Positions 43,443-59,905 of a stretch of DNA of 64,000 bases are shown piece by piece (position 1 is the first letter of the stretch; each line of letters starts with the position of its first letter). The position numbers and the translations under genes are program-made. This stretch comes from an uncultured Croceitalea sp. (GTDB lineage Bacteria; Bacteroidota; Bacteroidia; Flavobacteriales; Flavobacteriaceae), in NCBI GenBank assembly GCA_947503285.1, contig CANNDD010000001.1:124001-188000 (forward strand), read 5' to 3'. The notes beneath the pieces are model-generated. The model did not search any database and was not told where the DNA came from. It was given only the letters and a program-made list of their open reading frames with translations.

Positions 43443-43444
43443 AA

Positions 43445-43882
43445 TTATTTATACGACCTTTTAAGTACGTTGAAAAACAATATCTGCACCAATAAAATAT
43501 ATAACAATACCTGAAAATAACCATCATCTACCTTAGCACTATCAGGGTCCAACAACAGTTCAACGGCATAGGTTACATAAGGTTGCACCAAGGCATACAA
43601 CACCCCGATAACAATCGCCAAACGATACGATATGGCACGTAAACTGGCCACGAATTCGTCTTCAATTTTTTCGCGCGATATAGAGACCATTAAAAAACCC
43701 AAAATCATGATGTTTCTTAATAAAGGTTTTACCCAACTAGGCTCATCGACAAATTTTTTAGCGATCATCAATAGAAAGGTACCAATGATAATCGCCCAAC
43801 CAATTTTCAGGAATCGGTTTGGGAGTTGAAAGTTGCTCCAACGTTTTAAAAGCCTGGTCTCTGATTCACAGAAATTTCCCAT
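43445..43882 (-). CDS. Four-helix membrane protein paired with XRE regulator
   Basis: 145 residues with about four hydrophobic segments (IGWAIIIGTFLLMIAKK, LLRNIMILGFLMVSI, LAIVIGVLYALVQPYVTYAV, VLLYILLVQILFFNVL). The IGWAIIIGTFLLMIAKKFVDE opening is the most conserved in appearance. It is followed by the XRE gene with 2 bp between. Function unknown. The promoter on the minus strand is at 43930-43937. Confidence 0.8.
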   Translation of the reverse strand: MGNFCESETRLLKRWSNFQLPNRFLKIGWAIIIGTFLLMIAKKFVDEPSWVKPLLRNIMILGFLMVSISREKIEDEFVASLRAISYRLAIVIGVLYALVQPYVTYAVELLLDPDSAKVDDGYFQVLLYILLVQILFFNVLKRSYK

Positions 43883-43891
43883 AATGTAAAC

Positions 43892-43926
43892 TATTTTTTG
43901 CTAAATGTATATTATTTTTTACTAAA
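43892..43926. repeat. Two 14-bp direct repeats before the membrane protein-XRE operon
   Basis: TATTTTTTGCTAAA (43892-43905) and TATTTTTTACTAAA (43913-43926), period 21 bp, differ at one base. They lie between the promoter and the first gene. The spacing of two helical turns suits a dimeric repressor. Confidence 0.65.
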
Positions 43927-43929
43927 AGA

Positions 43930-43937
43930 CAAATATA
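43930..43937 (-). promoter_or_regulatory. Promoter -7 box for the membrane protein-XRE operon
   Basis: Read on the minus strand: TATATTTG, an exact TAnnTTTG match. The gene starts at 43882. The direct repeats lie downstream. Confidence 0.6.
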
Positions 43938-44060
43938 CTTTACATTTCTGATTGTAAATCTGATCGCTTTTCCTTTAGGCCAATATGCTTTTATTCCGTT
44001 TGAGGCCCTTAAATTTTACAATTTTGAGTACATTCAACCTACTGTAGCACTCGAAAACAA

Positions 44061-44705
44061 GTGATGACCCATACCAAAGAACATATTGTCGCACAAATGA
44101 AACGAATCAGGTTGGTACCCGTTTACCATACCGATGATATTACTGAAGCCAAAACGGTAGTGGATTCTTGCTACGGGGCAGGTATACGGGTGTTTGAATT
44201 TGTCAACCGTTCTGAAAATGCCTTACGTACGTTCGCAGCATTACAGGAACATTGCCAACAATATGATGATTTTATTTTGGGTGTTGGCACCATTTTCAAT
44301 GTTGAGGATGCCGAACGGTTCTACGATATTGGAGCACAATTTATCGTATCACCGGCGTTGGTAAAACCTGTTGCCCATTTTGCCAACCAAAACGACTTAT
44401 TATGGATACCGGGCTGCGGCACAATCACCGAAGTTCATGAGGCCAAAGTGCTCAATACCGATTTTATCAAAGTGTTTCCGGCAAATGTACTGGGTACTGC
44501 GTTTGTAAAAGCCGTCAAGTCGGTACTGCCAAAGGTGAATATCATGCCTACCGGTGGTATATCTCCCAAAAAAGAGGTATTGGACCAATGGTTCGATGCT
44601 GGTGCCGATTGTGTAGGCATTGGTTCCAAACTTTTTAAAAACCTTGAAGATGAAGGTAGCGATGCCCTAGGCAAGATGCTACGCCATATCCAAAAAATGG
44701 ATTGA
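44061..44705 (+). CDS. eda: KDPG/KHG aldolase
   Basis: 214 residues. It cleaves 2-keto-3-deoxy-6-phosphogluconate (or 4-hydroxy-2-oxoglutarate) into pyruvate and glyceraldehyde 3-phosphate (or glyoxylate). The Schiff-base Lys is K137 in FIKVFPANVLG; the acid Glu is E46 in RVFEFVNRS. GVGTIFNVEDAERF and IPGCGTITEVHEA are family blocks. It lies immediately before the GntR regulator and opposite the sugar operon, so it probably belongs to the same pathway, as the last step of an acid sugar route. No partner dehydratase (Edd-like) is present in this window. Confidence 0.93.
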   Translation: MMTHTKEHIVAQMKRIRLVPVYHTDDITEAKTVVDSCYGAGIRVFEFVNRSENALRTFAALQEHCQQYDDFILGVGTIFNVEDAERFYDIGAQFIVSPALVKPVAHFANQNDLLWIPGCGTITEVHEAKVLNTDFIKVFPANVLGTAFVKAVKSVLPKVNIMPTGGISPKKEVLDQWFDAGADCVGIGSKLFKNLEDEGSDALGKMLRHIQKMD

Positions 44706-44738
44706 ATCCGAATACCAAAACAAGTTTAAAAACCTGCT

Positions 44739-45440
44739 ATAAAAAAGTATCAGAACATACAGCACTACTTTGCCAAAAAGATTCAGAAAGGGCAGCTGCC
44801 CATCGGAAGTTATCTGCCCTCTGAGCATGAAATTTGCGAGCAATTCGGCACTACAAGAACAACAGTAAGGCGAGCGTTGGACGAACTGCTCAAAGCTGGT
44901 TTTATAGAAAAAGAGAAGGGCCGCGGAAGCAGGATCGTAGAATGGCGAAAATCATTGGGTTTATTGACCGTTAAAGGCTTCTCTGAAAGCTTGAACCAAC
45001 GAAAAAAAACTGTGGTACTTCAAGAACCTATAGTGAGTTCGTGGAATGAAGAAAGTCCTTTTCCATTTACCAAAAAAGAACAGCTTGCCAAAGCAGCCTA
45101 TTTTCAACGCCTGCGCTTCGTAAATGACAAAGCCATAATGTTAGAGCACAACTGGTATTCTTTAGATCAACTGCCCATTCTAAAAACCAAGGATTTTGTG
45201 GACGGCTCTTTTTTCAAAACTTTAAGTCAACGCTTCCTTATCGAAATTAAAGGTACCGAACAAGAACTTCGTGCGGAAAAGGCTTCCCCAACAGTGGCCA
45301 AACATCTTAATATTTCGGAGGGTTCGCCCATTTTGCATATTTCGTTGCGTTTTACCACAAGCCGACCTGGTTTGCACCTGTACAGTGAAGTGTATTGCAA
45401 CACCAATAAATATCCCATTACAAATCGCTATTTTCTTTAG
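44739..45440 (+). CDS. GntR-family regulator with UTRA effector domain
   Basis: The wHTH begins KKYQNIQHYFAKKIQKGQLPIGSYLPSEHEICEQFGTTRTTVRRALDELLKAGFIEKEKGRGSRI, and the UTRA part (about 75-233) ends FTTSRPGLHLYSEVYCNTNKYPITNRYF. No ATG, GTG or TTG occurs in frame before the wing, so the start is inferred as ATA at 44739 (MKKYQNIQ), a rare codon; the next in-frame TTG (44877) would cut off the DNA-binding domain. The C-terminal stop overlaps the convergent lactonase gene by 4 bp. It is a plausible regulator of the sugar operon. Confidence 0.8.
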   Translation: MKKYQNIQHYFAKKIQKGQLPIGSYLPSEHEICEQFGTTRTTVRRALDELLKAGFIEKEKGRGSRIVEWRKSLGLLTVKGFSESLNQRKKTVVLQEPIVSSWNEESPFPFTKKEQLAKAAYFQRLRFVNDKAIMLEHNWYSLDQLPILKTKDFVDGSFFKTLSQRFLIEIKGTEQELRAEKASPTVAKHLNISEGSPILHISLRFTTSRPGLHLYSEVYCNTNKYPITNRYFL

Positions 45441-46402
45441 TTGTTAGGTAGTGCAAAGGTGTATAGTTCCCTAGGATTTTGGATGAAAATAGCATCCAGG
45501 TGATGCCCCAGTCCTTTTTTGTTTAAAAAAGCTGGAATAGTGTCTATTAAATAATTTAAACCTGGGCCACCCCCGTAACTTTTCCAATACTTGTTTTTGG
45601 CCATATCCATACCCAAGGTAATTTGATCGGGATAATCAGGAAGTAGCGCTTCCAATAATCGCAGCGTCCAATTTGGGCTATCGGCGGGCCATCTAAAGGC
45701 ACTGTCATATTCTACCTTGACCCCAACATCGAGTACCGCGCGATTGTAATCCACTTCTTTGGCCCGATCCACGTGGGATAATACCACATGATTCAATCGT
45801 GCCCCTAGTTTTTCAAACAACAATGCCTGTTCCAATGCCTGCCTACCGAAATTCGTGTGGGTCAAAATAGGGACACCGGTTTCTAAATGGGTATTTACTA
45901 CGGCACGGAAAATCTTTTCTTGGTGTTTGCTAATGGGTTCGTCTCCCGTTGCCAATTTGATGAGTCCCGCTTTATGCGTCGTTCTTTGTACAATGGGGCC
46001 TCCGTAGTCGAATTTATCAATCCCGAACTGGACATCTTGAATAAATAGATCTGTCAATTGCGCTTCGGTATAGGTATAACGCCAGTGATTTTCAGGATAA
46101 TATTGTTCTAGATGAATACCGGTGGGTGCAATAATATGAACCTTGCTTTTTTGACTGACCTCAGCCAATTTCAATACATTTCTTCCACAATTTGCGGGCA
46201 TGGTATCTACTACCGTTCGGCCACCTGCTTTATAAAAGCCTAGCAACTCTTCAGCCACTTTTTCAATATCATTCAACGAAAACTCTGGGTGGCCAGCGGT
46301 CACATAACTATCTTCAATAATGATATGCTCATGTGAATAGGTAAAACCCATTTCATCTGCTGGCCTATCGCCTAAAACCGTACGAAAAAAAGGGTTGTTC
46401 AT
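45437..46402 (-). CDS. Phosphotriesterase-like lactonase (PTE family)
   Basis: 321 residues, the amidohydrolase PTE family size. Metal ligands: H24 and H26 (SHEHIII), carboxylated K149 (GLIKLATGDE), H182 (LTHTNFGR), H210 (VVLSHVDR), D266 (GMDMAKNKYW). In known relatives these enzymes hydrolyse sugar lactones, phosphorylated lactones or N-acyl compounds rather than organophosphates. The gene is the last of the operon, and overlaps the FAD oxidoreductase gene by 4 bp. Its substrate is probably a lactone made by the upstream oxidases. Confidence 0.9.
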   Translation of the reverse strand: MNNPFFRTVLGDRPADEMGFTYSHEHIIIEDSYVTAGHPEFSLNDIEKVAEELLGFYKAGGRTVVDTMPANCGRNVLKLAEVSQKSKVHIIAPTGIHLEQYYPENHWRYTYTEAQLTDLFIQDVQFGIDKFDYGGPIVQRTTHKAGLIKLATGDEPISKHQEKIFRAVVNTHLETGVPILTHTNFGRQALEQALLFEKLGARLNHVVLSHVDRAKEVDYNRAVLDVGVKVEYDSAFRWPADSPNWTLRLLEALLPDYPDQITLGMDMAKNKYWKSYGGGPGLNYLIDTIPAFLNKKGLGHHLDAIFIQNPRELYTFALPNN

Positions 46403-47766
46403 AAGGTATTATTTAACCATCCATTTCTTGAGGTGTCGGCAATGTTATCCGGAAATTCCAAAATAGCCCCTTTTGACAACAAGGTATTTTGTAGGTAGGC
46501 CACGTCCAATCCTTTTGCACCGGTATCAGCATCCAATGATTGCACGGCGGCAAAACCGGCAGCTTGCCCCATAGACATGGTTTGGGCCATTGACCGGCAA
46601 GAAGCATGTGCATCATGGGTCGCCGAAAAGCAACGCCCTACCACCCAGGTATTTTCACTTTTTTGAGGTACCAAAGTGCGATAAGGCACCCCATAGACCT
46701 TTCCATTAGGCACATATTGCCAAAACGTCTCTGAACCGGAACCACTGGCCTTTCGATGGTCTTCAATAGGGGCACCACATAAAAAAACTTGGTCTTCAAA
46801 CTGTTTTGCGGTCATACAATCTTCTTTGGTCAATCGGTATTCACCATAAACCCGACGTGTTTCACGTACCCCAATCTGTGTAGACAGTCCTATAATCTTT
46901 GCATTTTCATACCCTGGTATCTCTGCCCTAAAAAAATCTTCAAAAATAAAGGCCTGCCTTCTGCCCTCTTGTTCTGCTTCGGTTATACCGTTGGGTGTCA
47001 ATGGATCTTTATCGACTACTTTCACGGCAACTGTAGAAATACAACTGGGTTGGCACATTTCGTGCGCGGAACCTTCTTTTCTTGGTAGCGGGTGACTACC
47101 GCTCTTATAGGCCATTTTCATTTTTTCTTTCAGGAGTTTTTTCCCCCCGCTTTTCTCAAACCGGTCTAAATCTACGTTTGCCATTCGAAAGGTCGTGGTC
47201 ATGCTTTGGGCCGCCTCTTTCTCACCAGCTAGTTCGTAGGGAATTTCGGCCCAATGACAATAATCGGCATCGCCGGAAGCATCTATGATTCGTTTGGCAT
47301 GTATCCGGAAGAAGCCCAATCCCTTATGAAAACAAATACAACTGGATGCTTCCCCTGTTTTTTCAACAGCTACCAGAGTCGTATGAAAGAAAGTGTCTAT
47401 GCCATTTCCGATTAAAAATCGATCCCATAGTTCTTTTAATTTTTCAGGATTATAATTGACCCCTGTTCCCGCACCGTAGGTATTCGGTCGCAAAAAAATA
47501 TCCCCGGTTTTACAGAGTTCGTTGACAACCTGATCGGGAATGCCCCCTACAATTTTTCTTGGGGTATCTGAGGGGGTAAAAAATCCGTAGAACGTATCCA
47601 GCATTTGGGTCGATGTTCCCCCTGCAAAACCGTAACGTTCAATGAGGGTCACTTTGTAGTTCCCCTGACCAGCAGCAATCGCCGCTGCGCAGCCTGCACT
47701 ACCACTACCGATAATCAAGATATCGGTCGTATAGGATTTTTGAATTTTTGTTGAAAAATGTTCCAT
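46399..47766 (-). CDS. FAD-dependent oxidoreductase
   Basis: 455 residues. ILIIGSGSAGCAAAIAAGQGNYKVTLIERYGFAGG is the Rossmann dinucleotide-binding segment at the N-terminus, and AKRIIDASGDADYCHWAEIPYE is a second FAD contact. The FAD_oxidored family often accompanies polysaccharide and sugar loci. WVVGRCFSATHDAHASCRSMAQTMSMGQAAGFAAVQS near the C-terminus is conserved. The natural substrate is unknown. Genes are close-packed: 1 bp to the SIS gene, 4-bp overlap with the lactonase. Confidence 0.88.
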   Translation of the reverse strand: MEHFSTKIQKSYTTDILIIGSGSAGCAAAIAAGQGNYKVTLIERYGFAGGTSTQMLDTFYGFFTPSDTPRKIVGGIPDQVVNELCKTGDIFLRPNTYGAGTGVNYNPEKLKELWDRFLIGNGIDTFFHTTLVAVEKTGEASSCICFHKGLGFFRIHAKRIIDASGDADYCHWAEIPYELAGEKEAAQSMTTTFRMANVDLDRFEKSGGKKLLKEKMKMAYKSGSHPLPRKEGSAHEMCQPSCISTVAVKVVDKDPLTPNGITEAEQEGRRQAFIFEDFFRAEIPGYENAKIIGLSTQIGVRETRRVYGEYRLTKEDCMTAKQFEDQVFLCGAPIEDHRKASGSGSETFWQYVPNGKVYGVPYRTLVPQKSENTWVVGRCFSATHDAHASCRSMAQTMSMGQAAGFAAVQSLDADTGAKGLDVAYLQNTLLSKGAILEFPDNIADTSRNGWLNNTL

Positions 47767-47767
47767 A

Positions 47768-48553
47768 CTACTGCTTTACACCAACATTTTCAAAAAGTTT
47801 CGCCATTCTATGGGCGTGTTCGTCATAGGCGGATTCAAAAAGGGCAGCGGCACGTTCTTCACCTACCACCTTGCCACTGCTCAATACTTTGGGTGTTTTG
47901 CCATTTTGATGCAAAATAGCCGCAATTTCGGCTTTTAAGGTATTAATCAATAAAACGCCCCCTAATGTTGACCCTGGCGCCACCGGAGTGTCCATGCCCT
48001 CAATAGGTATCATGGCATCACCCAGTGGTGCACCGGTATCCAACACAAAATCGGCAAAATCAATCAATTTCTTACCATCTTCACGTTTCGAAGTGCTACC
48101 CTCTAAATGTTGACTGCTCACTAATGCTGCGACCTTCACCTTTTTTTTCTGGAACTCCTCGGCCATTTCAATGGGCACTACATTACAGCCACTTGACGAA
48201 ATGATCAATGCAGTGTCCTCTTCAGTGATATCAAAGTTTCTTAAAATCTTAGCGGCAAGACCGGAGACATTTTCAATGAACATGGCCTGTCGTTGTCCGT
48301 TGGCGCCCACCACTAAATTATGAAAGGAAAGCGATAGCTCTACGATAGGATTGAACCCTGGAAAGGAACCATACCTGGGCCACATTTCTTCGACCATCAT
48401 ACGGCTATGGCCCGATCCAAAAAGATGCACCATCCTACCCTTTAAAATAGCATCGGCAAAAATCTTGGCTACCCTCTGTATTTGGGCTTCCTGTTTTTCA
48501 ATAACGCCGATAATCGCTTTACCTTTTTCTAAATACTGTTTCGTATAACTCAT
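47768..48553 (-). CDS. SIS-domain sugar isomerase-like protein
   Basis: 261 residues. The SIS fold contains GRMVHLFGSGHSRMMVEEMWPRYG and DTALIISSSGCNVVPIEMAEEFQKKKVKVAALVS. SIS proteins isomerise phosphosugars or bind them as regulators; this one belongs to the SIS_2-type, about the length of UPF0309 proteins. KKLIDFADFVLDTGAPLGDAM is the third block. It lies between the ROK kinase and FAD oxidoreductase, so isomerising a phosphorylated sugar made by ROK is likely. Confidence 0.85.
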   Translation of the reverse strand: MSYTKQYLEKGKAIIGVIEKQEAQIQRVAKIFADAILKGRMVHLFGSGHSRMMVEEMWPRYGSFPGFNPIVELSLSFHNLVVGANGQRQAMFIENVSGLAAKILRNFDITEEDTALIISSSGCNVVPIEMAEEFQKKKVKVAALVSSQHLEGSTSKREDGKKLIDFADFVLDTGAPLGDAMIPIEGMDTPVAPGSTLGGVLLINTLKAEIAAILHQNGKTPKVLSSGKVVGEERAAALFESAYDEHAHRMAKLFENVGVKQ

Positions 48554-48556
48554 AGT

Positions 48557-49459
48557 TTATTTTTCTCTTGATTTTGCGAACAATGCCGCTCCCATTGCCC
48601 CTGCATATTGCCCATATTTGGCGATTTCAATTTTTGTCTTTGAACTGTCAGGCCGCCATTCGTACAATGCCATAAATTCTTTTAATGGCCCTAAAAGTGC
48701 CTCCTTGGCCCCATGGGCGATTCCACCACCCAAAACAATCAATTCGGGTGAAAAGGCATTGATCAACGATCCCATACCCACGGCTAGTTTGCGCACGGAA
48801 TCCAACCACCAATGTGCCGCCAAAACAGCTCCATTTTGGTAAGCTGCCACCAAGGCTTTGGTGCTTTCAAATTTTTGATGGGTTCGTTGGCGTACTGAAA
48901 AATTGCCTATGGCGTATTCCAAGCTACCTACCATATTGGTCATTGTTGATACACCGTCATGGTCAACGGTAATATGCCCAAAATGCCCCGCGCGATTCAG
49001 GTTTCCTTGGTAGAGTTCACCATTGATGATTACGCCTCCCCCAACACCAGTACCCAAAGTCAACAATAGAAAGTTCTGTATTCCCTTTTTTTGATATTCC
49101 GCGTGGTATTCTGCCAAACAGGCGGAATGACCATCGTTGATTACCGAAACATCTAAATCAATGGCTTTGGACCAGTCAAAATTTTCGATACCCCTTAAAC
49201 GTTCCGGCATATGGAGGATTTTTCTATTTGCAGCATCCGTAAGTCCCGGAGCCGATATGCCCACTTTCAACTTCTCTTTTTGTGTTCCTCCCATTGTGGT
49301 TTTTTGCGTTTCGATAATTTCTAAAATACGTGCCTTCCAGTCCGATTCCCCATCATCGGAATACGTCGCTATCTCTTCTTTCTGAAGGATTTTGGCATTC
49401 TTATCCAACAACATCCATTTGATGCGCGTCCCTCCAATATCAACACCTAAATAGTTCAT
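48557..49459 (-). CDS. ROK-family sugar kinase
   Basis: 300 residues. The ATP-binding element GVDIGGTRIKWMLLDK, IND (VINDGHSACLAEYH), and GTGVGGGVIINGELYQG are present. The typical ROK zinc motif CxCGxxGC is absent after GHFGH; only the following GSLEY remains. ROK enzymes phosphorylate glucose, N-acetylmannosamine, fructose and related sugars, or act as repressors; there is no HTH here, so it is a kinase. Presumably produces the substrate of the SIS isomerase. Confidence 0.88.
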   Translation of the reverse strand: MNYLGVDIGGTRIKWMLLDKNAKILQKEEIATYSDDGESDWKARILEIIETQKTTMGGTQKEKLKVGISAPGLTDAANRKILHMPERLRGIENFDWSKAIDLDVSVINDGHSACLAEYHAEYQKKGIQNFLLLTLGTGVGGGVIINGELYQGNLNRAGHFGHITVDHDGVSTMTNMVGSLEYAIGNFSVRQRTHQKFESTKALVAAYQNGAVLAAHWWLDSVRKLAVGMGSLINAFSPELIVLGGGIAHGAKEALLGPLKEFMALYEWRPDSSKTKIEIAKYGQYAGAMGAALFAKSREK

Positions 49460-49465
49460 ATGCTA

Positions 49466-50251
49466 TTATTCATATTGTCCCTCACTAAGTGCCCAACCAC
49501 CGTCCACACTTAATACTTGACCTGTGATAAAAGTGGAATCCGGCGCCAGAAATAGCAGTACGGCATTTTTGATATCGTCAGGTTTTCCGGGGCGACCACC
49601 ATCTAATGGTTGTTTGGTCTTTACAAAAGATAGAATGGTCTCATCTTGAATCGCCCTTTGCGCCATGGGGGTTTCAAAGAGACTTGGGGCTATAACGTTT
49701 ACCCTAATACTTTTATCGGCATAATAGGCCGCAATGGACTTTGAAAATCCAATAATCGCGGCTTTGGCCGTGGCATAGGCATGGGTCACAAAGTATTTTG
49801 GCGAGGGTGAATACGCCAAAACGGAGCCCATATTCAAAATCGTTCCTGCCCGTCCACTCTCTAAAAAATAATTGACCATCGCCTTGTTGGACAGCATCAA
49901 GGCAGTCAGGTTCAAATCAAGGGTCTTGTTCCAACCTTCTAAACTCATTTCGTGCAAAGGTCCATCCCCATACTTTCTGCCGCTACCGCCCGCTACATGA
50001 AAAAGCCCGGTAATCTGACCAAACACCGATTTTGCCAAGGAAATCGCTTTTAGTATGGTCTCTGGTTCAATGGCATCTCCACTAAAAATTATGGGCTGCT
50101 CCCCAATAATTGTTCTTGCCGATTGACAACTTTCTTCATCTTTACCCACCAACACCAAATCGGCACCATGTTCATTGAGGGCCACGGCCGCAGCCAAACC
50201 CATGCCCGATGTGCCACCCATGATGATATAGCAGGTTCCTTTAAAGTTCAC
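49466..50251 (-). CDS. SDR-family oxidoreductase
   Basis: 261 residues, classical short-chain dehydrogenase. The nucleotide motif is GGTSGMGLA (residues 12-20). The catalytic triad is S143 (MGSVLAYS), Y159 and K163 (AYATAK). LDLNLTALMLSNKAM and RVNVIAPSLFETPM are conserved. NAD(P)-linked oxidation of a sugar alcohol or reduction of a keto sugar is the likely chemistry. It is adjacent to ROK (6 bp) and to the gluconate dehydrogenase subunit 3 gene. Confidence 0.92.
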   Translation of the reverse strand: MNFKGTCYIIMGGTSGMGLAAAVALNEHGADLVLVGKDEESCQSARTIIGEQPIIFSGDAIEPETILKAISLAKSVFGQITGLFHVAGGSGRKYGDGPLHEMSLEGWNKTLDLNLTALMLSNKAMVNYFLESGRAGTILNMGSVLAYSPSPKYFVTHAYATAKAAIIGFSKSIAAYYADKSIRVNVIAPSLFETPMAQRAIQDETILSFVKTKQPLDGGRPGKPDDIKNAVLLFLAPDSTFITGQVLSVDGGWALSEGQYE

Positions 50252-50260
50252 TACACTCGA

Positions 50261-50836
50261 TTAAATGGCCCAAGGATTGCTGGTCTGTTCATCATAATCG
50301 ATACACCCCAAGTACTTTTGGGGAATAGGAAGATAGGTTCTTGCTTGGGTCATTCCAATTTTAGAGGTAAAGTAGCCCGATACCGCGAGGTCTTTCAGTA
50401 TGAAAAAATAGTGTATTACAGGTGGCTCCGCATTTTCATTGGCTTCTGCAAAATCTATCGCCTCTGCCTGTATGTCCTCTAACAATCCCAATTTCGCAGT
50501 ATCCTCCAATTTTTCAAATGGCTTGCCATGTCGTTCTACACATAAGGCTTCTATTGAGGTAAGCCCTGTTAAAAAAACATCTTGGTCCTCGGGTGCCAAA
50601 CAGTCTTGAACCATGGTCACCATATACTTACCTACCTCAGCAGCTTTGGCTCCGGGTAGGTCAGGTGTTGCTGGAATTATGGTCTCGGCCAACTCATCTA
50701 AAAATGCCACATCGTTTGCGGTCAGGTCGCTCCAAACCCTAGGTTCATACTCACAAGATTGTAATAAGGTGGTAGGCAATACCAAGGTACAGCCACCGAT
50801 AACCCCCATATTTTTTAAAAAACTTTTTCTATCCAT
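50261..50836 (-). CDS. Gluconate 2-dehydrogenase subunit 3 family protein
   Basis: 191 residues. The N-terminus MDRKSFLKNMGVIGGCTLVLPTTLLQSC is an export signal with a lipobox-like end. The conserved core is LDELAETIIPATPDLPGAKAAEVGKYMVTMVQDCLAPEDQDVFLTGL. In other systems this subunit accompanies a GMC oxidoreductase that has no signal of its own and moves it across the membrane. It is followed 31 bp away by the GMC gene upstream in the operon. Confidence 0.9.
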   Translation of the reverse strand: MDRKSFLKNMGVIGGCTLVLPTTLLQSCEYEPRVWSDLTANDVAFLDELAETIIPATPDLPGAKAAEVGKYMVTMVQDCLAPEDQDVFLTGLTSIEALCVERHGKPFEKLEDTAKLGLLEDIQAEAIDFAEANENAEPPVIHYFFILKDLAVSGYFTSKIGMTQARTYLPIPQKYLGCIDYDEQTSNPWAI

Positions 50837-50867
50837 GATATTGGTCGTTTTTGTCTTAAGTTGAACT

Positions 50868-52598
50868 TTAAAGATTTCTACGTTTTAATTCGGCTACCGC
50901 ATAATCTGCGGCCCGGGCCGTTAATGCCATATAGGTCAAAGAAGGGTTCTGGCAGGCACTTGAAGTCATGCAAGACCCATCGGTCACAAACACGTTTTCA
51001 GCGCCCCAAACTTGGTTGTTGGCATTGAGCACTGATGTTTTCGGACTTTTACCCATTCTGGCGGTTCCCATTTCATGAATGTTCAAGCCCATCGTTCTAT
51101 TTTCGGGAACAATTTCAATATCGTAGAATTTCGCCTTGTCCAACATTTCAACCGCAGACCCAATCATATCTTTGGTCATGTTGGTTTCGTTGGTTCCAAA
51201 TTCCGCATCAATTTCCAATAAGGGAATACCCCAATCATCGGTCTTGTCTTTACTCAAGGTTATTTTGTTATTATGATAGGGAAGGCATTCGCCCATGCCC
51301 ATCAATGATATTTCCCATGGCCCTAGACGGGTCAAATCTTCTTTTAAGGGCGCTCCAATCGCTGTCTCGCTGACCTCACTTGCCGAGGGACGCATTCCTG
51401 CAACGGAATAGGCAAATCCCCTAGTGAAATCGGTCTGCTTGTCATCACCGAAATTTCGGAACCTTGCCAAATACGTTCCGGTTGGCCTTCGGCCTTCATA
51501 ATATTTATCCTTAAACTGGTCTGACTTTGCCTTTACCCTGGCATTGTAGTTATGGTCCATCAGGTTATGGCCCAATTCGCCACTGTCGTTACCCATTCCC
51601 TCAGGGAAACGCGATGAAGTGGAATTCATCAAAATCAAGGTGGAGTTTAAGGTAGCCGCATTGACAAAGACAATTTTTGCGTAAAACTCCATGGATTCTT
51701 TGGTATTGGTATCGATTACCCGAACCCCTTTTGCTTTTTGCGTTTGCTCATCGTAAATAATGGAATGCACCACTGAAAACGGTCGAATCGTCAAATTACC
51801 TGTTTTTTCAGCAGCAGGCAATGTTGCGGAGTTGCTACTAAAATACCCCCCAAATGGGCAACCGCGATAACACATATCCCGGTACTGACATGGTCCACGG
51901 CCCAGATGTGGTTGCGACAGGTTGGCCGTTCTAGAAATGACCAAGTGCCGGTCATTGTAATTTGTTTTTAAAGTGTCTTTAAAATAAGTTTCCATGCAAT
52001 TCATCTGCATTGGAGGTAAAAACTCCCCATCGGGAATTTGGGGCAGGCCATCACGATTACCACTGATACCCGCAAATTTTTCAGCATAACTGTACCAAGG
52101 GGCAATATCTTTATAACGGATGGGCCAATCAACGGCAACCCCTTCTTTGGCATTGGCCTCAAAATCAAGATCACTCCAACGTTGGGTCCATCTTGCCCAT
52201 AACAACGACTTTCCGCCTACTTGATATCCCTTGATCCAATCGAAAGGCTTTTTTTGAACGTAGGGATGCTCATCATCCTTCACAAAAAAATGTTCCGTAG
52301 CTTCTTCGTACGCATAGCATTTGCTCAAAATAGGATTTTCGCTCTTCATTTTATGGGTCACCTTGTTGCGGTGCGGAAACTCCCAAATATGTTTACTCGC
52401 GGTTGGATAGTCTTTGATATGTTCGACCATTCGCCCCCGTTCAAGCACTAATGTCTTCAATCCTTTTTCACACAATTCTTTGGCTGCCCATCCACCACTG
52501 ATTCCAGATCCGATAACGATGGCATCATAGGTGTGCTTTTCTTGGGCTTTGGCATTAATGTTCACGGAAGCAAATGCCCCATTTTTTGATTCATTCAT
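50868..52598 (-). CDS. GMC-family oxidoreductase
   Basis: 576 residues. The FAD-binding motif YDAIVIGSGISGGWAAKELCEKGLKTLVLERG begins near residue 24. GGKSLLWARWTQRW and NIHEMGTARMGKSPKTSVLN, and DGSCMTSSACQNPSLTYMALTARAADY (active-site His/Asn region) are present. There is no signal peptide. With the subunit-3 protein it is likely a periplasmic glycoside or sugar dehydrogenase (glucoside 3-dehydrogenase type), possibly feeding electrons to a cytochrome c. Confidence 0.92.
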   Translation of the reverse strand: MNESKNGAFASVNINAKAQEKHTYDAIVIGSGISGGWAAKELCEKGLKTLVLERGRMVEHIKDYPTASKHIWEFPHRNKVTHKMKSENPILSKCYAYEEATEHFFVKDDEHPYVQKKPFDWIKGYQVGGKSLLWARWTQRWSDLDFEANAKEGVAVDWPIRYKDIAPWYSYAEKFAGISGNRDGLPQIPDGEFLPPMQMNCMETYFKDTLKTNYNDRHLVISRTANLSQPHLGRGPCQYRDMCYRGCPFGGYFSSNSATLPAAEKTGNLTIRPFSVVHSIIYDEQTQKAKGVRVIDTNTKESMEFYAKIVFVNAATLNSTLILMNSTSSRFPEGMGNDSGELGHNLMDHNYNARVKAKSDQFKDKYYEGRRPTGTYLARFRNFGDDKQTDFTRGFAYSVAGMRPSASEVSETAIGAPLKEDLTRLGPWEISLMGMGECLPYHNNKITLSKDKTDDWGIPLLEIDAEFGTNETNMTKDMIGSAVEMLDKAKFYDIEIVPENRTMGLNIHEMGTARMGKSPKTSVLNANNQVWGAENVFVTDGSCMTSSACQNPSLTYMALTARAADYAVAELKRRNL

Positions 52599-52608
52599 CT
52601 AAAACAAT

Positions 52609-53799
52609 TTAAGATTTGATTTTTTGGACGATGTCACCCGTAGTTTTATGTTTGAGTATGTATTTGATATCGCCATTGGGCAATATCTCTTCTTTGATCA
52701 AATTGTAATTTTCGTCGAACGAGACCGCTGTTTTTGAAACTTCTTCCACATCCGCCCCACGCCAATCCTCTAAAATGACCGGCTCCCACATTTTGGTCTC
52801 AGCCGACTTAAAGGCTGCATCCAAAACCGCATTTACGACATAACCATCATAAAAAGTCTCCCTAGGTTGCCGATTGGTCTCCATAGCTTCGAACATGTCG
52901 GTAAACATATTGGGGTACCCCAAATCATGGGCCTCGTCCCCTACTGGAAATAACCAACCTTTATCAACCTCGGCTTTTTCCGCTACGTAGTTATCCCTAT
53001 CACCTGTTGTGAACATTTCAAATCCGGTTCTCAAAAAATTATTGATCCAAATCGTACCTTCAGTCCCCATTACCTCATCGCGAAGGTCCATACCGCCCCT
53101 GAATGCCCAACTAACCTCAAATTGGCCTATGGCCCCATTGGCGTACTTCACCAAGGCAATGGCATGATCTTCGGCATCAATAGGATGTACTTGCGTATCT
53201 GCCCAACACATTACTTCTAAGGGCCGCACTTCTTTGCCAATATAATTGCGGCTTATTTCAACACAATGGCATGCCAAATCGATGATGGCACCGCCTCCTG
53301 ATTTTTCCTTGTCCCAAAACCAATCGCTATGCGGACCAGGGTGTGTTTCCCGCGATTTTGCCCAAAGCACTTTACCTATAGCACCATTCTTAACGCTCTC
53401 CAATGATTTTAAAAACTTGGGGGTATAACAGAGATCTTCTAAATACCCGGCAAAAATTTGTGCTTCCTCGACCATATCCAGCATTTCTTTGGCCTCTTTC
53501 GCCGTTCTGCCCAATGGTTTTGTACAAAGTACTCCTTTTTTGGCCTTGGCACAAGCCTCAACAGCTGCTTTGTGCAAATGGTTGGGCAAAGAAATGAGCA
53601 CCACATCAACTTCTGGATGTTCAATAGCTTCAAGCATATCATCGGTAAAATGGTCCAAACCGTAATCTTTGGCGAACCGCCCCGCATTTTCCTTATTTCT
53701 GGAATAAACACTCACAACTTGGTCTTTTCTACGCTGATCATGTAATGAGGTGGCATAAAACCTCGCGATAAAGCCCGAGCCCAACATGGCAATTTTCAT
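52609..53799 (-). CDS. Gfo/Idh/MocA-family oxidoreductase
   Basis: 396 residues. The Rossmann start MKIAMLGSGFIARFYATSLHDQ and DVVLISLPNHLHKAAVEACAKAKKGVLCTKPLGR (EKP-type catalytic element written TKP here) are present. A C-terminal alpha/beta domain follows (WAKSRETHPGPHSDWFWDKEKSGGGAIIDLACHCVEISR). No export signal. Many relatives oxidise a sugar at C3 or C2 with NAD. It is 10 bp from the GMC gene. Confidence 0.92.
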   Translation of the reverse strand: MKIAMLGSGFIARFYATSLHDQRRKDQVVSVYSRNKENAGRFAKDYGLDHFTDDMLEAIEHPEVDVVLISLPNHLHKAAVEACAKAKKGVLCTKPLGRTAKEAKEMLDMVEEAQIFAGYLEDLCYTPKFLKSLESVKNGAIGKVLWAKSRETHPGPHSDWFWDKEKSGGGAIIDLACHCVEISRNYIGKEVRPLEVMCWADTQVHPIDAEDHAIALVKYANGAIGQFEVSWAFRGGMDLRDEVMGTEGTIWINNFLRTGFEMFTTGDRDNYVAEKAEVDKGWLFPVGDEAHDLGYPNMFTDMFEAMETNRQPRETFYDGYVVNAVLDAAFKSAETKMWEPVILEDWRGADVEEVSKTAVSFDENYNLIKEEILPNGDIKYILKHKTTGDIVQKIKS

Positions 53800-53880
53800 C
53801 TTATTTGATTGTTTTTTTGATAAGTTAGCTATATTTCGTTAGATGTTCCGCGCACCATATTAAGCTTTAGTTTGATGGTG

Positions 53881-54813
53881 TTACCAACCAAAGGTTTCTT
53901 GCACGAACACTCTACTTTTCTTCCAATCTTCTTTCAGCGCATTCTTAGGTTCAAAACCATCTGGAAAGGCCAATTCTATGGCGGCTTTGCCCTTAAAATC
54001 AGCGGCCTGGAGTGCTTCACTTATGGCCTTAAAGTCAGTAGCTCCTTGCCCGACATATTCCGTCCATGTGCCATCGGCATACTGATCACGGATATGAAGG
54101 TACACCAATTGGGAGCCATAGGTATTGATAAAATCCACAGGGTCAACACCCGCCCTGATCAACCAATTCAGATCGGGGCCTAGATTGGCATTGGGTATGC
54201 GTTGTAGCGTACCTTTTAGGTCATGAAGGTCATTCTCTACCTCATAGGTATGGTTATGCAGGTTGGGCTGAATGCCGTTGTCTTCACAAATAGTAAAAAT
54301 GCGTTTCAGCAATTCTGCTTGTGCATCCAGTTCGCTTTCGGTTTTCATCCTTCCTACATGACCGACCGATATGCCAAAAGTTTCTGCGTTCAAGGCGGCA
54401 AGCCTGGGCACCACCAGTTGAATGTCTTCCCATATTTTTTGATGCTGTGCCTTATCAGCCATTTGAAAACCTACCCCATAGGAAGAGCCTGAAACCTTGA
54501 TTCCGTACGTATCACTAAGTGCAGCGATGCGTTTCACCGCATCATCACGACGTAGCACGACTTCCATCAATTCCACACCATATAAACCCGCGTACGCCAT
54601 ATCGGCAAAAACCTGTTCTAAATTCGGGGTACAATCCCAGTTTGGGGGAAATTTACTGGCATACACCCAAAGGTGGCCACAGATGGCAACATTAGCTACT
54701 AAATCATTGTTGCTATCTATTTTAGAAGAAAACATACTAGGCAGTACTATGCCGCCCAAAGATGCCTTTGCTGTGTTTTTAATAAACTTTCTACGATTAT
54801 ATTCTGATTTCAT
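53881..54813 (-). CDS. Tat-exported sugar phosphate isomerase/epimerase-family TIM barrel
   Basis: 310 residues. The N-terminus MKSEYNRRKFIKNTAKASLGG has the twin-arginine motif RRKFIK followed by a hydrophobic stretch (ASLGGIVLPSMFSS). The TIM-barrel part contains GVELMEVVLRRDDAVKRIAAL, IQPNLHNHTYEVENDL, GPDLNWLIRAGVDPVDFI and LVYLHIRDQYADGTWTEYVGQGATDFKAISEAL, the AP-endonuclease-2/xylose-isomerase-like family. The export signal places it in the periplasm, with the GMC dehydrogenase. Relatives act on 3-keto sugars. Confidence 0.9.
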   Translation of the reverse strand: MKSEYNRRKFIKNTAKASLGGIVLPSMFSSKIDSNNDLVANVAICGHLWVYASKFPPNWDCTPNLEQVFADMAYAGLYGVELMEVVLRRDDAVKRIAALSDTYGIKVSGSSYGVGFQMADKAQHQKIWEDIQLVVPRLAALNAETFGISVGHVGRMKTESELDAQAELLKRIFTICEDNGIQPNLHNHTYEVENDLHDLKGTLQRIPNANLGPDLNWLIRAGVDPVDFINTYGSQLVYLHIRDQYADGTWTEYVGQGATDFKAISEALQAADFKGKAAIELAFPDGFEPKNALKEDWKKSRVFVQETFGW

Positions 54814-54870
54814 GGTTGCTCATCTATGTGGTTAGGAATAAGCTTAGGTGTTCCCTAAAAATACGAAATA

Positions 54871-54888
54871 AACTTGTACGTACAAGTT
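54871..54888. promoter_or_regulatory. 18-bp perfect palindrome, candidate operator
   Basis: AACTTGTACGTACAAGTT lies 58 bp upstream of the isomerase/epimerase gene, inside the operon between it and the transporter. The TTGTAC-GTACAA core resembles HutC-type GntR operators. It could be the site of the GntR/UTRA protein encoded at 44739. Confidence 0.6.
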
Positions 54889-55019
54889 GTTTTTCAATAA
54901 AGGCCGATAACCTTAAAACAGGGTTGCCTAAAGTAGTGTTCTTTAAAACCAGGTACCTTTGTGTTCTAAAGGTGTTGCGCTTTCTATTCTATCATAAAAA
55001 AGAAAGAAACCTTTAAGAC

Positions 55020-56678
55020 CTAAAAGATTAAGTAAGTACTTAATACCAATAACGCTATTAGACCGCCTACGATCCACGCATATTTCCATGGGGTAGTATC
55101 TATGACATCGGTGACTTTAGGTATATATACGTCCGTCTTAGGTTTAACCAAGCCTACGACGAGCATGATAACGATATTGACGACAAACAGAATTCCCATA
55201 ATATGTAAAAAGTGAGGGTAAGCCTCTGCCTTTATAACGGCCAGCTGCGCCGTATCGGTAATTCCGTTTGCTTCGGCTTTTTCCAATGCTTTTCCGACCA
55301 TACTAGGCCCAATGAACAATAAGCTGATAAGATACATGAGCACCCCACCTATCAAAACTATCTTTGCTCCAATTGCAGGAACTTTTTTTGTAAGGATTCC
55401 GATAAGGACAACAGCTAAAATAGGCACACTTAAACTCCCTAATGCTTGTTGAATATAAGAGAACAAGCCGTCTGGTGCATACCTGATAAACGGTGCTATG
55501 GTCATTGAAATAACGGCAAGGGCCAGTCCAAAACGCTTACCTGATTTCACCGTTTGAAGCTCAGAAGCCTCTTTGTTAAAGAATTTTTTATACAAATCGA
55601 AACCAAATAGCGTTGCACTACTATTAAGCAGGCTATTGAATGAACTTAAAATAGCCCCAAATAAAACAGCTGCGAAGAACCCTAACAGGCTGCCTGGTAA
55701 AACCCTTCGAACCAATTCAGGGTAAGAAGCATCTGCATCCGTGAGCTCCGCGCCAAACATGTTGTAAGCTATAATACCCGGTAAAACTACTATAACCGGG
55801 ATTAAAAACTTAACAAAAGCTGCCAACAGCACCCCTTTTTGGCCTTCTTTTAAACTTTTTGCCCCAAATACACGCTGCAATATGGATTGATTGGTGCCCC
55901 AATAGTACATTTGTGCAATCATCATTCCCGTAAAAATAGTTCCGACGGGGATGGAAGAAGTTACATCCCCGGTAACATCAAACTTATCTTGGTTTTCCGA
56001 CCATAGTTTAGCTATTCCTCCCGAAATACTACCATCATCACTTATCATGGTCAATCCAAAGTAAGGAATCAACAAACCGCCTATCAATAAACCTATTGCG
56101 TTCACTAAATCTGAAACCGCAACGGCTTTTAAACCTCCATAGATTGCATAAACAATACCTATTAAACCTATACTCCAAACACATATCCAATAACATATGG
56201 TCTCAGATACACCCAAGACCTCGGGCAACTGAAACATTGTAATAAAAGCTTTTGACCCTGCATAGAGTATCGTAGGCAATAGCACTATCCCAAAGGCAAT
56301 CAAGAATAAAACCGATAAAATCGCTTTTGTGTTTTCATCAAAACGCCCTTGTATAAATTCGGGAATCGTTGTAATGCCTTTTTTCATGTACTTAGGCAAA
56401 AACCAGACAGCGGTTATGACCATGGCAATAGCTGCGAGGGTCTCCCATGCCATTACCAGAATACCTTCGGTAAATGCCTGACCGTTTAAACCCACTATCT
56501 GTTCAGCAGAAAGATTGGTCAAAAGCAAGGAACCGGCAATGGTAAGCGCTCCTAAACTTCTACCCCCTAAATAGAACCCGTCCGCAGACTTTTCGTTAGT
56601 ACCTCGTGTAGCATACCAGGCTATGCCTGCTACCAATAATGTAAAACCCAAAAAAGAAATAATGGATAAGGTTCCCAT
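55020..56678 (-). CDS. Sodium/solute symporter (SSS family) for sugars
   Basis: 552 residues with about 14 membrane segments. MGTLSIISFLGFTLLVAGIAWYATRGTNEKSADGFYLGGRSLG at the N-terminus, then LLLTNLSAEQIVGLNGQAF, is typical of the SGLT-like SSS family. SILQRVFGAKSLKEGQKG and SGKRFGLALAVISMTIAPFI are conserved loops. It takes up a sugar or sugar acid with Na+. It begins the long minus-strand operon, and the upstream region has a 13-bp dyad at 56757. Confidence 0.93.
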   Translation of the reverse strand: MGTLSIISFLGFTLLVAGIAWYATRGTNEKSADGFYLGGRSLGALTIAGSLLLTNLSAEQIVGLNGQAFTEGILVMAWETLAAIAMVITAVWFLPKYMKKGITTIPEFIQGRFDENTKAILSVLFLIAFGIVLLPTILYAGSKAFITMFQLPEVLGVSETICYWICVWSIGLIGIVYAIYGGLKAVAVSDLVNAIGLLIGGLLIPYFGLTMISDDGSISGGIAKLWSENQDKFDVTGDVTSSIPVGTIFTGMMIAQMYYWGTNQSILQRVFGAKSLKEGQKGVLLAAFVKFLIPVIVVLPGIIAYNMFGAELTDADASYPELVRRVLPGSLLGFFAAVLFGAILSSFNSLLNSSATLFGFDLYKKFFNKEASELQTVKSGKRFGLALAVISMTIAPFIRYAPDGLFSYIQQALGSLSVPILAVVLIGILTKKVPAIGAKIVLIGGVLMYLISLLFIGPSMVGKALEKAEANGITDTAQLAVIKAEAYPHFLHIMGILFVVNIVIMLVVGLVKPKTDVYIPKVTDVIDTTPWKYAWIVGGLIALLVLSTYLIF

Positions 56679-56756
56679 AAAGAGTTGGTTTTAGTTTGGT
56701 TATTATAAATTATGATATACTTTTTTACATACCTGTCACCAAAGTGGTGCACTTAG

Positions 56757-56769
56757 TACGAATTTCGTA
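56757..56769. promoter_or_regulatory. 13-bp dyad upstream of the transporter gene
   Basis: TACGAA-T-TTCGTA is a perfect dyad with a 1-nt centre, 79 bp before the SSS gene. Candidate operator. Confidence 0.45.
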
Positions 56770-56900
56770 AAACGGTTGAAGATAATTTATTCAAATTCAA
56801 TTTACAATTTTTGTTAGGCTAAAAATTACGAAAAAGGCAGTGCATCAATGATGGGAATACCTTTTTGAAACCCAATATCCGCTTTTGGGGGAACACTGTA

Positions 56901-57923
56901 TTACTTTTCACTTTGTGAAACCGGATATATTCCCAATACGTCTTCGATAAATCGATTGGTTTCTTTTTGAACGGACTGTAAATCTTTTGAAGAGACGTGG
57001 GAGGTCATCACATGATCGCCCACTTCAGTAAAGGCAATCTTTCTTTTTTTGCGGGTCGGGGTTCCCAGCGCATCAAACATTCTTAACATCGCGGGTACGG
57101 AAACCACCTTATCTTTAATGGAATCATTTTTATGGAAATATCCCAAAAATGTTGGCTGCCCAACCTTCTCGAAAGTTTCAGGAACCATGGTATAGTCTAC
57201 CATGGCCTGCAAATGTGTTAATGCCTCAAGTCGGTATTTGGTGGTCCAATATCGATTTTTCAAATCGATATCCGTATCAAATTCATGATAGTCGCCGCCT
57301 TTCACCAACCGGGCCAATTGAAGGCCCCAAGGTTTTGTCAGTAACTTTGCATTAGAATCATAAATTTCAATATTTGGGGAGTATAGCAACAGTCCGGCTA
57401 TGTCAACATCACCACCGGCCAAATGTAATGCCAATGTCCCTCCGGTTGAGGTCCCCATTACAATCACTTTTTCACCCAAACGTTTGGCCACGGCGATGGC
57501 TTCTTTTGCAGAATCAATAACCGCATCAGCTGTCAAGTCAAGCATAGGCTCTTCTTCACTCAGTCCATGCCCCGCCAGCCTTGGCAGGTATAGATTACAT
57601 CCATAACGTTTTGCCGTTTCAAGATGGATGGGGTCACCTTCTTCTTGACTAGCCGACCATCCATGAAGATAGACGATACTATATGCTGTTTTTTTGGGAA
57701 TACTATCGAACCAAATGATTCTTGCCTCATTATCGGGCCTAATATTTTTTAATTGCTTCTCCCGCGTTTTAATCTGGTTTTCTAAAGCATGTATATCAGC
57801 AGTTACCTCTGGTAGTGTCTTATCCAATTCAGGGGCTTCCACTTTTGGCCCTAAAAAATAGGTTACTACCAAAATTGCAACAACGATGAGAAGGCCTTTT
57901 ACGATTTTGAAAACTATTCCCAT
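56901..57923 (-). CDS. Membrane-anchored alpha/beta hydrolase
   Basis: 340 residues. A hydrophobic N-terminus (IVKGLLIVVAILVVTYFLG) is probably an anchor. The hydrolase fold: IVYLHGWSASQEEGDPIHLETAKRYGCNLYLPRLAGHGLS, GTSTGGTLALHLAG (nucleophile Ser in GTSTGG), and EVGDHVMTSHVSSKD with the His near the C-terminus. Function unknown; it probably cleaves an ester in the periplasm. It is 9 bp downstream of the LRR lipoprotein gene, and presumably co-transcribed. Confidence 0.87.
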   Translation of the reverse strand: MGIVFKIVKGLLIVVAILVVTYFLGPKVEAPELDKTLPEVTADIHALENQIKTREKQLKNIRPDNEARIIWFDSIPKKTAYSIVYLHGWSASQEEGDPIHLETAKRYGCNLYLPRLAGHGLSEEEPMLDLTADAVIDSAKEAIAVAKRLGEKVIVMGTSTGGTLALHLAGGDVDIAGLLLYSPNIEIYDSNAKLLTKPWGLQLARLVKGGDYHEFDTDIDLKNRYWTTKYRLEALTHLQAMVDYTMVPETFEKVGQPTFLGYFHKNDSIKDKVVSVPAMLRMFDALGTPTRKKRKIAFTEVGDHVMTSHVSSKDLQSVQKETNRFIEDVLGIYPVSQSEK

Positions 57924-57932
57924 TTACCTTCT

Positions 57933-58595
57933 TTAGTTACAATCAATTGCGTAAGTATCATTTTCATCCTTAGTCCAATCCGTTGGGGGGTTCTCAAGTT
58001 GCTCTTGGTTGACCTGAATACAGCTCAAAGGGTTATCACCGATAATAAAATCCGTCAATGCCAGATTTACCGATACATCGATGGCACTGAGCTTATTGTC
58101 GGAAAGCGATAATAATTGTAGTGCGGTATTGTCAGAGACATCGATTAAGGTTAATTCGTTACGATCCGCGCCAACTTTTTCTAAGATTGAGATGCCGTCA
58201 AGGGTAAGCTCTTCGAGCATATTATCTTCAGCCCATAGAAATTTAAGGCTTCTATTTCTAGAAACATCCAAAGACGTCAGTTCATTTCCCCTAACGTTTA
58301 AATTTTCCAATGCATCAAAACTACCGATACCACTAAGGTCCGTTATCCCTTTATCGTCAATGATCAAGTTCGTTACCGATTTGATACGGCTATCCAATAC
58401 CCGGCCATCTAGAGCGTCATCTAAGTTTGCATCTATCAAAGCCTGTTCAAAAGCGGAATCCGCTATTGCCGTTACGGCAGGTACCGGGGGTGTGTTGGTT
58501 TGTTCCTGTTCTTCCCCAGTATCGGTGGCATCAGAGGAGCAAGAGAGCAATACCATACACGTTAAGAAATGATAGTAGAATTTATTCTTTTTCAT
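57933..58595 (-). CDS. Leucine-rich-repeat-like lipoprotein
   Basis: 220 residues. A lipobox signal (LTCMVLLSC) is followed by an acidic Thr/Glu linker. Residues about 45-210 hold irregular LRR units such as ITDLSGIGSFDALENLNVRGNELTSLDVSRNRSLKFLWAEDNMLEELTLDG. These form a curved binding surface. It is probably at the outer membrane or surface, binding other proteins. Starts 8 bp after a strong promoter. Confidence 0.85.
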   Translation of the reverse strand: MKKNKFYYHFLTCMVLLSCSSDATDTGEEQEQTNTPPVPAVTAIADSAFEQALIDANLDDALDGRVLDSRIKSVTNLIIDDKGITDLSGIGSFDALENLNVRGNELTSLDVSRNRSLKFLWAEDNMLEELTLDGISILEKVGADRNELTLIDVSDNTALQLLSLSDNKLSAIDVSVNLALTDFIIGDNPLSCIQVNQEQLENPPTDWTKDENDTYAIDCN

Positions 58596-58602
58596 AGCAT
58601 TT

Positions 58603-58631
58603 CAAAAATACAATTTTTCAGGTGAATCAAA
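58603..58631 (-). promoter_or_regulatory. Promoter of the LRR lipoprotein gene
   Basis: Read on the minus strand: TTTG (58631-58628), 17 bp, TATTTTTG (58610-58603). Both boxes and the spacing match the Bacteroidota consensus. The resulting leader is very short. Confidence 0.7.
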
Positions 58632-58660
58632 TTAATGGTAAATTCAGGCGCAAATTAATT

Positions 58661-59905
58661 ATGAAAAAGCTCTTACAAATAGTAGGTCCGGGACTCTTGT
58701 TCGCCAGCATGGCGATCGGGACCTCACATTTGGTACTATCGACAAAAGCTGGCGCCCAATACGGCTGGGTAATGATCATCCCTATCGTTTTGGCCAACAT
58801 TTTGAAATATCCCTTTTTTGAGTTTGGGGTACGCTATACCCATGTTACAGAGAAAACACTTATCGAGGGATATCAAAATCTAGGCAGAAAATACCTTTGG
58901 TTATATGCGTTCATTACCGTCGTAAGCGTTTTCACCATATTGGCCGCGCTTTACGTCGTTACCGCGGGGCTCTTTATGAATCTTTTCAAAGTATCAAATG
59001 TGGGTATCAATACTGTGACATTGGCCCTATTCGCATTTATAAGCTTGCTCTTGATCATTGGGCGTTATCGATTTTTAGAGGTTTCATTGAAATTCGTGGT
59101 CAGCATACTCTTTTTGGCCTTGATTACTACCACAATAGTTGTTATTCATAAGGGGCAGGTCATCCCTATCGCAGATTTCGAAGCCCCTAAAATATTCAAT
59201 GAGGTCGGTGTACTATTCCTTATCGGTCTCGTTGGATGGATGCCCACGGCTGTTGAAGCCTCTGGCTGGGTCAGTATGTGGAGCATGGAAAAACTGAAAT
59301 CCTTATCAGAAAAACCTTCTTTAACGGCCACATTGAATGAATTTAACCTCGGTTATTTTTTGACGGCATTATTGGCCGTATTCTTTTTGATTATAGGATG
59401 GATGACCCTATATGGCACTGGAACCGAACTTAGTGGAAATGCGGTGCTTTTTGCCGACCAAGTAGTTAGCATGTTTACCTTGCATATAGGCAGCTGGGCT
59501 TATATTTTGATTGCGGTTGCAGCCTTTGCTACGATGTTTAGTACTTGTATGACCGCTCATGATGCGGTTTCAAGGGTAAGCCTTGATGTTTTGGCAAAAC
59601 TCTATCCGACTTACAAAGGCTTTACCATAAAGTCAGCATTTGCCATAACGGTTGTACTGTTAGCGGCTATAAATTGGATGGTCATTGCTTTATTTAGCGG
59701 AAATATGGCAAATCTAGTAGCCTTGGCCACCTTTGTCTCATTCGTAATGGCACCCTTAATAGGTTGGATGAATTTAAGGACCGTTACCAGTGATGATGTT
59801 CAAGCCCGATACAAACCTTCATCTGCGCTTAGGATTCTAGCTTATGTCGGAATGATCTTTCTCGCTGCATTCGCCCTTTACTATTGTTGGATAATACTCA
59901 TATGA
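58661..59905 (+). CDS. Divergent Nramp-family transporter
   Basis: 414 residues from the ATG at 58661 (MKKLLQIVGPGLLFASMAIG), with an in-frame GTG at 58622 as alternative. About 11 membrane segments. GPGLLFASMAIGTSH is the place of the Nramp TM1 motif (normally DPGN); here it is GTSH. TM6 reads GWMPTAVEASGW, where the usual MPH is MPT. The QYGW element and overall fold fit. Substrate may not be a divalent metal, since the metal-coordinating residues are absent. Divergent from the LRR lipoprotein. Confidence 0.85.
   Translation: MKKLLQIVGPGLLFASMAIGTSHLVLSTKAGAQYGWVMIIPIVLANILKYPFFEFGVRYTHVTEKTLIEGYQNLGRKYLWLYAFITVVSVFTILAALYVVTAGLFMNLFKVSNVGINTVTLALFAFISLLLIIGRYRFLEVSLKFVVSILFLALITTTIVVIHKGQVIPIADFEAPKIFNEVGVLFLIGLVGWMPTAVEASGWVSMWSMEKLKSLSEKPSLTATLNEFNLGYFLTALLAVFFLIIGWMTLYGTGTELSGNAVLFADQVVSMFTLHIGSWAYILIAVAAFATMFSTCMTAHDAVSRVSLDVLAKLYPTYKGFTIKSAFAITVVLLAAINWMVIALFSGNMANLVALATFVSFVMAPLIGWMNLRTVTSDDVQARYKPSSALRILAYVGMIFLAAFALYYCWIILI

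Follow-up and report, generated by a model that had tools for sequence, protein, structure and literature searches.

A conserved palindrome as the very probable operator of a GntR/UTRA regulator facing a nine-gene sugar operon in Flavobacteriaceae

The 64,000-nucleotide stretch of DNA analysed here (the window) contains a perfect 18-bp palindrome, AACTTGTACGTACAAGTT, at 54871–54888. It sits in a 206-bp gap (54814–55019) between the genes for a TIM-barrel protein (53881–54813) and an SSS transporter (55020–56678), both on the reverse strand. Does this palindrome serve as an operator and, if so, for which regulator and which genes? The original prediction took it for a likely operator bound by a GntR/UTRA regulator encoded elsewhere in the window, and our check confirmed both its sequence and its place between transporter and isomerase. 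By conservation and co-occurrence, operator function and the choice of binder now both appear very likely. We consider it highly probable, from comparative sequence evidence, that the palindrome is the operator of this regulator and that the regulator represses a nine-gene operon.

The palindrome, the operon and the regulator gene

The palindrome stands alone in its surroundings. No further match to AACTTGTACGTACAAGTT with up to three mismatches was found in the window (shuffle mean 0.03), and a matrix scan of the window scored the palindrome at 32.4 and the next best position at −1.8; the best scores in six Markov shuffles of the window ranged from −3.2 to 12.9. The same scan gave no second operator near the window's gntR gene or ahead of the transporter, in agreement with what had been noted earlier. 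The exact 14-bp core is unique in the 4.34-Mb genome, where the 18-mer with 3 mismatches occurs at three other places, the same number as for a reversed control pattern. Taken alone, an 18-bp palindrome is only mildly unusual: base composition predicts 0.32 perfect 18-mer palindromes in the window, and two are present. The weight of the palindrome therefore comes from its conservation in relatives and not from its symmetry. A second perfect palindrome, of 20 bp (TTACGAAAACGTTTTCGTAA, 23200–23219), lies between the open reading frames 22528–23067 and 23275–24804, and its centre is reminiscent of LacI-type operators.

See Table 1 for the features of the locus; open reading frames were predicted mechanically and have at least 120 amino acids. 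Judging by its gene families, the operon would serve to oxidise, phosphorylate and isomerise a sugar or a sugar acid. The regulator gene is at the far end of the cluster, convergent with the last operon gene and overlapping it by 4 bp; its end is about 9.4 kb from the palindrome, close to the 10 kb first given.

Table 1. Coordinates of the predicted features around the palindrome
Feature	Position	Strand	Remarks
Very probable operator, perfect 18-bp palindrome AACTTGTACGTACAAGTT	54871..54888	.	sequence; core in 47/50 regulator loci
Putative -33 TTG inside palindrome	54883..54885	-	19 nt before -7 box
Putative -7 box TATTTTTA, TAnnTTTG type	54856..54863	-	7 nt after 18-bp palindrome
First operon gene, xylose-isomerase-like TIM barrel (PF01261)	53881..54813	-	
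Gfo/Idh/MocA dehydrogenase	52609..53799	-	
GMC oxidoreductase	50868..52598	-	
Gluconate 2-dehydrogenase subunit 3-like protein	50261..50836	-	
Short-chain dehydrogenase (SDR)	49466..50251	-	
ROK-family protein, probably sugar kinase	48557..49459	-	
SIS-domain sugar isomerase	47768..48553	-	NF002805, above cut-off
FAD-dependent oxidoreductase (PF12831)	46399..47766	-	
Phosphotriesterase / phospho-furanose lactonase-like protein, last operon gene	45437..46402	-	below named families' cut-offs
GntR/UTRA (HutC-subfamily) regulator, predicted palindrome binder	44739..45440	+	convergent with operon

The regulator combines an N-terminal GntR winged helix-turn-helix (HTH; PF00392, 56.4 bits, cut-off 27) with a C-terminal UTRA domain (PF07702, 67.3 bits, cut-off 23.8). 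Upstream of the HTH, its reading frame in the window offers no ATG, GTG or TTG as a start codon, whereas such a start is present in all 50 close homologs described below. The likeliest reading is that the ATA at 44739 is the best start candidate, or that the start is altered; lacking a standard start codon, the gene is of uncertain translation in this genome. Directly 5′ of gntR, at 44061–44705, is an aldolase-like gene, presumably of the KDPG type. At E 1e-20 none of the 50 regulator loci shows a neighbour resembling it, and one locus (L025) has a weak match (25 %).

Co-occurrence of the core with the regulator

Seven aligned regulator sequences, used to scan a collection of 84,980 species genomes, yielded 53 loci. 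Fifty of these hold close regulator homologs (42–63 % identity, with homologs and orthologs assigned by similarity), and three weak partial matches (L080–L082) were excluded. Whether loci that keep the regulator also keep the palindrome was the point on which the original prediction was to be judged: the 16-bp core is exact in 34 of the 50 loci, present with at most one mismatch in 46 and with at most two in 47. Thirty permuted palindromes, drawn from 100 made and counted over all 53 loci, gave a mean of 0 at up to one mismatch and a mean of 0.2 (maximum 1) at up to two. Leaving out five genomes already covered by the family scan below, the core is present in 42 of 45 loci.

Three loci lack the motif. 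L050 is cut off by its contig end 0.8 kb beyond gntR, in the direction in which the site is found in its Arenibacter relatives. L078 carries a TA-centred variant, GCTTGTATATACAAGT, 5′ of the regulator, at three mismatches from the core. In L058 the 113 bp of sequence that precede the gntR match, where most relatives would have a site, contain none; a site might lie further upstream there, as it does in L053 and L076.

A separate scan of 299 genomes of the family gave the same picture. The exact central 16-mer occurs at nine sites in eight genomes, and its reversed control nowhere. In each of the seven genomes other than our own, a gene homologous to the window's GntR/UTRA regulator lies at most about 10 kb from a site (52–67 % identity, three of the matches being cut by the end of the stretch). 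Thus, the exact core is present in 8 of 11 genomes with the regulator and in 0 of 288 without it. At up to one mismatch, 17 genomes have the site. Ten of them are among the 11 regulator genomes; the other seven, out of 288 genomes without the regulator, are background, the reversed pattern being found in nine genomes. With our own genome left out, the core is exact in 7 of 10 regulator genomes and within one mismatch in 9 of 10. In the eleventh regulator genome (G212) the gene is at a contig end. A diverged paralog of the regulator in G217 (C9:693630; L089:9131–9823; 218 bits) served as a specificity control: the 20 kb around it contain no palindrome, the best match having four mismatches, and this paralog possibly uses another operator. 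In G189, two extra sites with one mismatch (L083:4108 and L084:4956) are on contigs other than the regulator's, far from it, and are possible further members of the regulon.

Next, we asked whether the site follows the regulator or the target genes. The Gfo/Idh enzyme of the operon (at least 67 % identity) is found in 17 of the 299 family genomes. The nine of these that encode the regulator, our own included, all have the site, which in eight lies 5′ of the operon; in the remaining one (G222) the operon has no site, and the single one present lies 5′ of gntR. None of the eight genomes without the regulator has the site, the best match in the 18–19 kb around the enzyme gene having four to five mismatches. 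Two of these eight keep five (L090) and six (L093) of the nine operon genes, and the others share little besides the Gfo/Idh gene.

These eight genomes also bear on a second candidate binder, a 337-amino-acid protein encoded at C1:22569. It joins a GntR HTH to a Peripla_BP_3 domain, which is the architecture of AraR, and the core fits the published consensus of AraR, which binds the same core in Bacillus. The site, however, tracks the UTRA regulator: six of the eight siteless genomes carry other GntR proteins, in each case including one with an open frame of 343–380 amino acids. Furthermore, the HTH of the C1:22569 protein, aligned by eye, differs at contact positions, with LPSI for LPSE and a V in place of the recognition helix's second Arg. 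We therefore regard binding by this protein as very unlikely.

The neighbourhood of the regulator gene can be quite different. A DeoC aldolase is encoded in 21 of the 50 regulator loci, 20 of which have no SIS or Gfo/Idh homolog. The site is nonetheless present in 20 of these 21, at 39–68 bp before the gntR match in 19. Because the palindrome goes with the same regulator gene in many related bacteria though the neighbouring metabolic genes differ, a repressor very probably docks at it. The operator appears to have been kept while the target genes changed.

Promoter layout and proposed repression

The sigma-A −7 box of a flavobacterium is TAnnTTTG, located at −12 to −5 (PMC9723704, as given in the part of that text available to us). 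A putative box of this type, TATTTTTA, follows the palindrome in the window, with A as its last base and not the G of the consensus. Its position predicts a +1 near 54851. The TTG at 54883–54885 we take to be the −33 element. The box recurs in relatives: TAnnTTT begins 6–10 nt after the 16-mer, on one side or the other and mostly at 8 or 9 nt, at 45 of the 53 sites identified in the 50 loci; with shuffled flanks, the mean over 1000 trials was 5.1 sites and the highest count 14. The other eight sites have no such box. A scan for E. coli-type promoters found nothing at the palindrome, as expected for Bacteroidota. At L023:12286 the palindrome has TTATTTTCTATTTTT on either flank, an arrangement resembling two divergent promoters placed symmetrically about a single operator.

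Of the 53 sites, 52 are within 170 bp of the start of an open reading frame of at least 120 amino acids, and none is found deep within such a frame. In 29 loci a site precedes the gntR match by no more than 300 bp, which suggests autoregulation there; 23 loci have a site elsewhere, and five have both.

The palindrome is 3′ of the transporter gene, and with two such palindromes in the window where 0.32 are expected, it could in principle be due to chance, or the transporter transcript could fold there into a hairpin or terminator. However, it is the letters that recur in relatives and not symmetry alone, as permuted palindromes do not recur, and the proximity of the sites to gene starts also speaks against this. 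A terminator search over 54700–57000 placed none at the palindrome and three elsewhere, and Rfam at gathering score returned no family over 43000–58700. This explanation is largely refuted, and we give it almost no credence.

The palindrome had initially been assigned to an internal promoter of a sugar operon that included the transporter. The comparison with relatives does not bear this out. No transporter homolog was found in seven 20-kb stretches around other sites at E 1e-5, and among the 50 regulator loci a search at E 1e-20 found one in a single locus, several loci ending soon after the operon start. Since the operon of the relatives begins right after the site and a transporter homolog is almost absent, the palindrome probably marks the first promoter of the nine-gene operon.

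We propose the following mechanism for the GntR/UTRA regulator. A regulator dimer would bind the palindrome symmetrically, with one winged helix-turn-helix per half site. Lying over the −33 region of the putative promoter whose −7 box is at 54863–54856, the bound protein would keep RNA polymerase off the operon. Repression would then extend over the TIM-barrel, Gfo/Idh, GMC, gluconate 2-dehydrogenase subunit 3-like, SDR, ROK, SIS, FAD oxidoreductase and phosphotriesterase genes, in this order, from 54813 to 45437. The repressor may be released when its UTRA domain binds a metabolite, perhaps a phosphorylated pathway sugar; a sugar phosphate is suggested by UTRA relatives such as NagR. We infer operon transcription, binding, repression and effector alike, and the preference for repression over activation rests on geometry. 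As some sites lie between divergent genes, the regulator might bind the palindrome as an activator or in a dual role. The position of the site over the −33 region and the near-fixed spacing to the −7 box at 45 of 53 sites fit the steric repression of GntR-family repressors, and we judge an activating or dual role to be unlikely. Repression remains our preferred reading.

Contacts of the helix-turn-helix and comparison with known systems

In NagR, Arg38 reads G-5 and Arg48 reads G-4, and AraR keeps only the second of these arginines (PMC4333415, in the part available). The position of Arg38 is occupied by N in 40, H in 8 and S in 2 of the 50 homologs, with H in the window's protein; the position of Arg48 is R in all 50 and in the window. 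T occupies −5 in 105 of 106 half sites and G occupies −4 in 106 of 106, an invariance that is partly due to selection, because resemblance to the motif was how the sites were chosen. A survey of GntR-family motifs links HTH position 39 to the central operator bases (PMC4494728, in the part available). By our reading of the Pfam alignment, this position is residue 41 here. It is T in 49 of 50 homologs, and the one V, a single case, belongs to L078, the locus with the TA-centred site.

Taken together, we see an even chance that these proteins form a widespread HutC-subfamily regulator family of Bacteroidota, not described in the papers searched. One operator, convergent with the AraR box of Firmicutes, would have been kept while the targets were replaced wholesale, with a DeoC-aldolase set in many loci, mostly of Bacteroidales and other Bacteroidota, and the nine-gene sugar-oxidation operon in Flavobacteriaceae; two HTH positions (NagR Arg38 and Met49) would set the operator type. 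The survey mentioned above includes 389 HutC-subfamily proteins, one of them from Bacteroidota, according to the part of it available (PMC4494728). Among titles and the starts of abstracts, in literature outside subscription journals, preprints and RegPrecise, we found no description of the operator in Bacteroidota. A constant operator with exchanged target genes makes a clean case for studying regulon rewiring, and the locus offers, for Bacteroidota, a regulator-operator pair and a promoter layout that can be put to the test. Additionally, the site marks genes to be tested together in the search for the operon's sugar.

NagR/YvoA and DasR, of the HutC subfamily, share the GntR HTH and the UTRA domain with our regulator; its best match among solved structures is YvoA (E 1.9e-13). 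Most HutC-subfamily sites have 4 nt between GT and AC (PMC4494728, in part), as has the predicted site (GT-ACGT-AC). However, where NagR has Arg38 to read G-5, the homologs have His, Asn or Ser, and their operator carries T-5. As far as the available part of PMC4333415 describes them, the natural sites of NagR fall short of perfect palindromes, in contrast to the exact palindromic core of 34 of the 50 loci. HutC itself gives the best NCBIfam score for the window's protein (TIGR02018) and has the same domain order, but the score of 104 bits is below the equivalog cut-off of 220, and the operon genes are of other families. FucR and ManR of Bacteroides thetaiotaomicron are also GntR-family sugar regulators of Bacteroidota, a likeness drawn from their description in the accessible part of PMC3878776.

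By its letters, the core is nearer to AraR boxes than to NagR-type HutC sites. The AraR consensus is At(T/A)tGTaCGTAcaa(A/T)T, and the CG-centred core TTGTACGTACAA fits this ara box of Bacillus subtilis (PMC4218819, both from the part available). The core had been called HutC-type at the outset; this holds for the UTRA sensor, which is of HutC type, whereas TTGTACGTACAA itself matches the AraR consensus. Neither the 14-mer nor the 16-mer core occurs in the literature searched. The 12-mer core was found in PMC5289569 only, on AraR of Geobacillus, and the 10-mer in eight papers including PMC4218819, within the parts of these texts available; ATTGTACGTACAA is given for Geobacillus araD too (PMC5289569, likewise in part). 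The likeness extends to the protein, as the two specificity positions of the AraR HTH are Asn and Arg, N and R being found in the regulator homologs as well, and Arg41 of AraR reads the guanine equivalent to G-4 (PMC4333415, in part). The sensors, however, are different: that of AraR is LacI-type (PMC4494728, in part), and our regulator, with its UTRA domain, falls outside the AraR subfamily by domain content.
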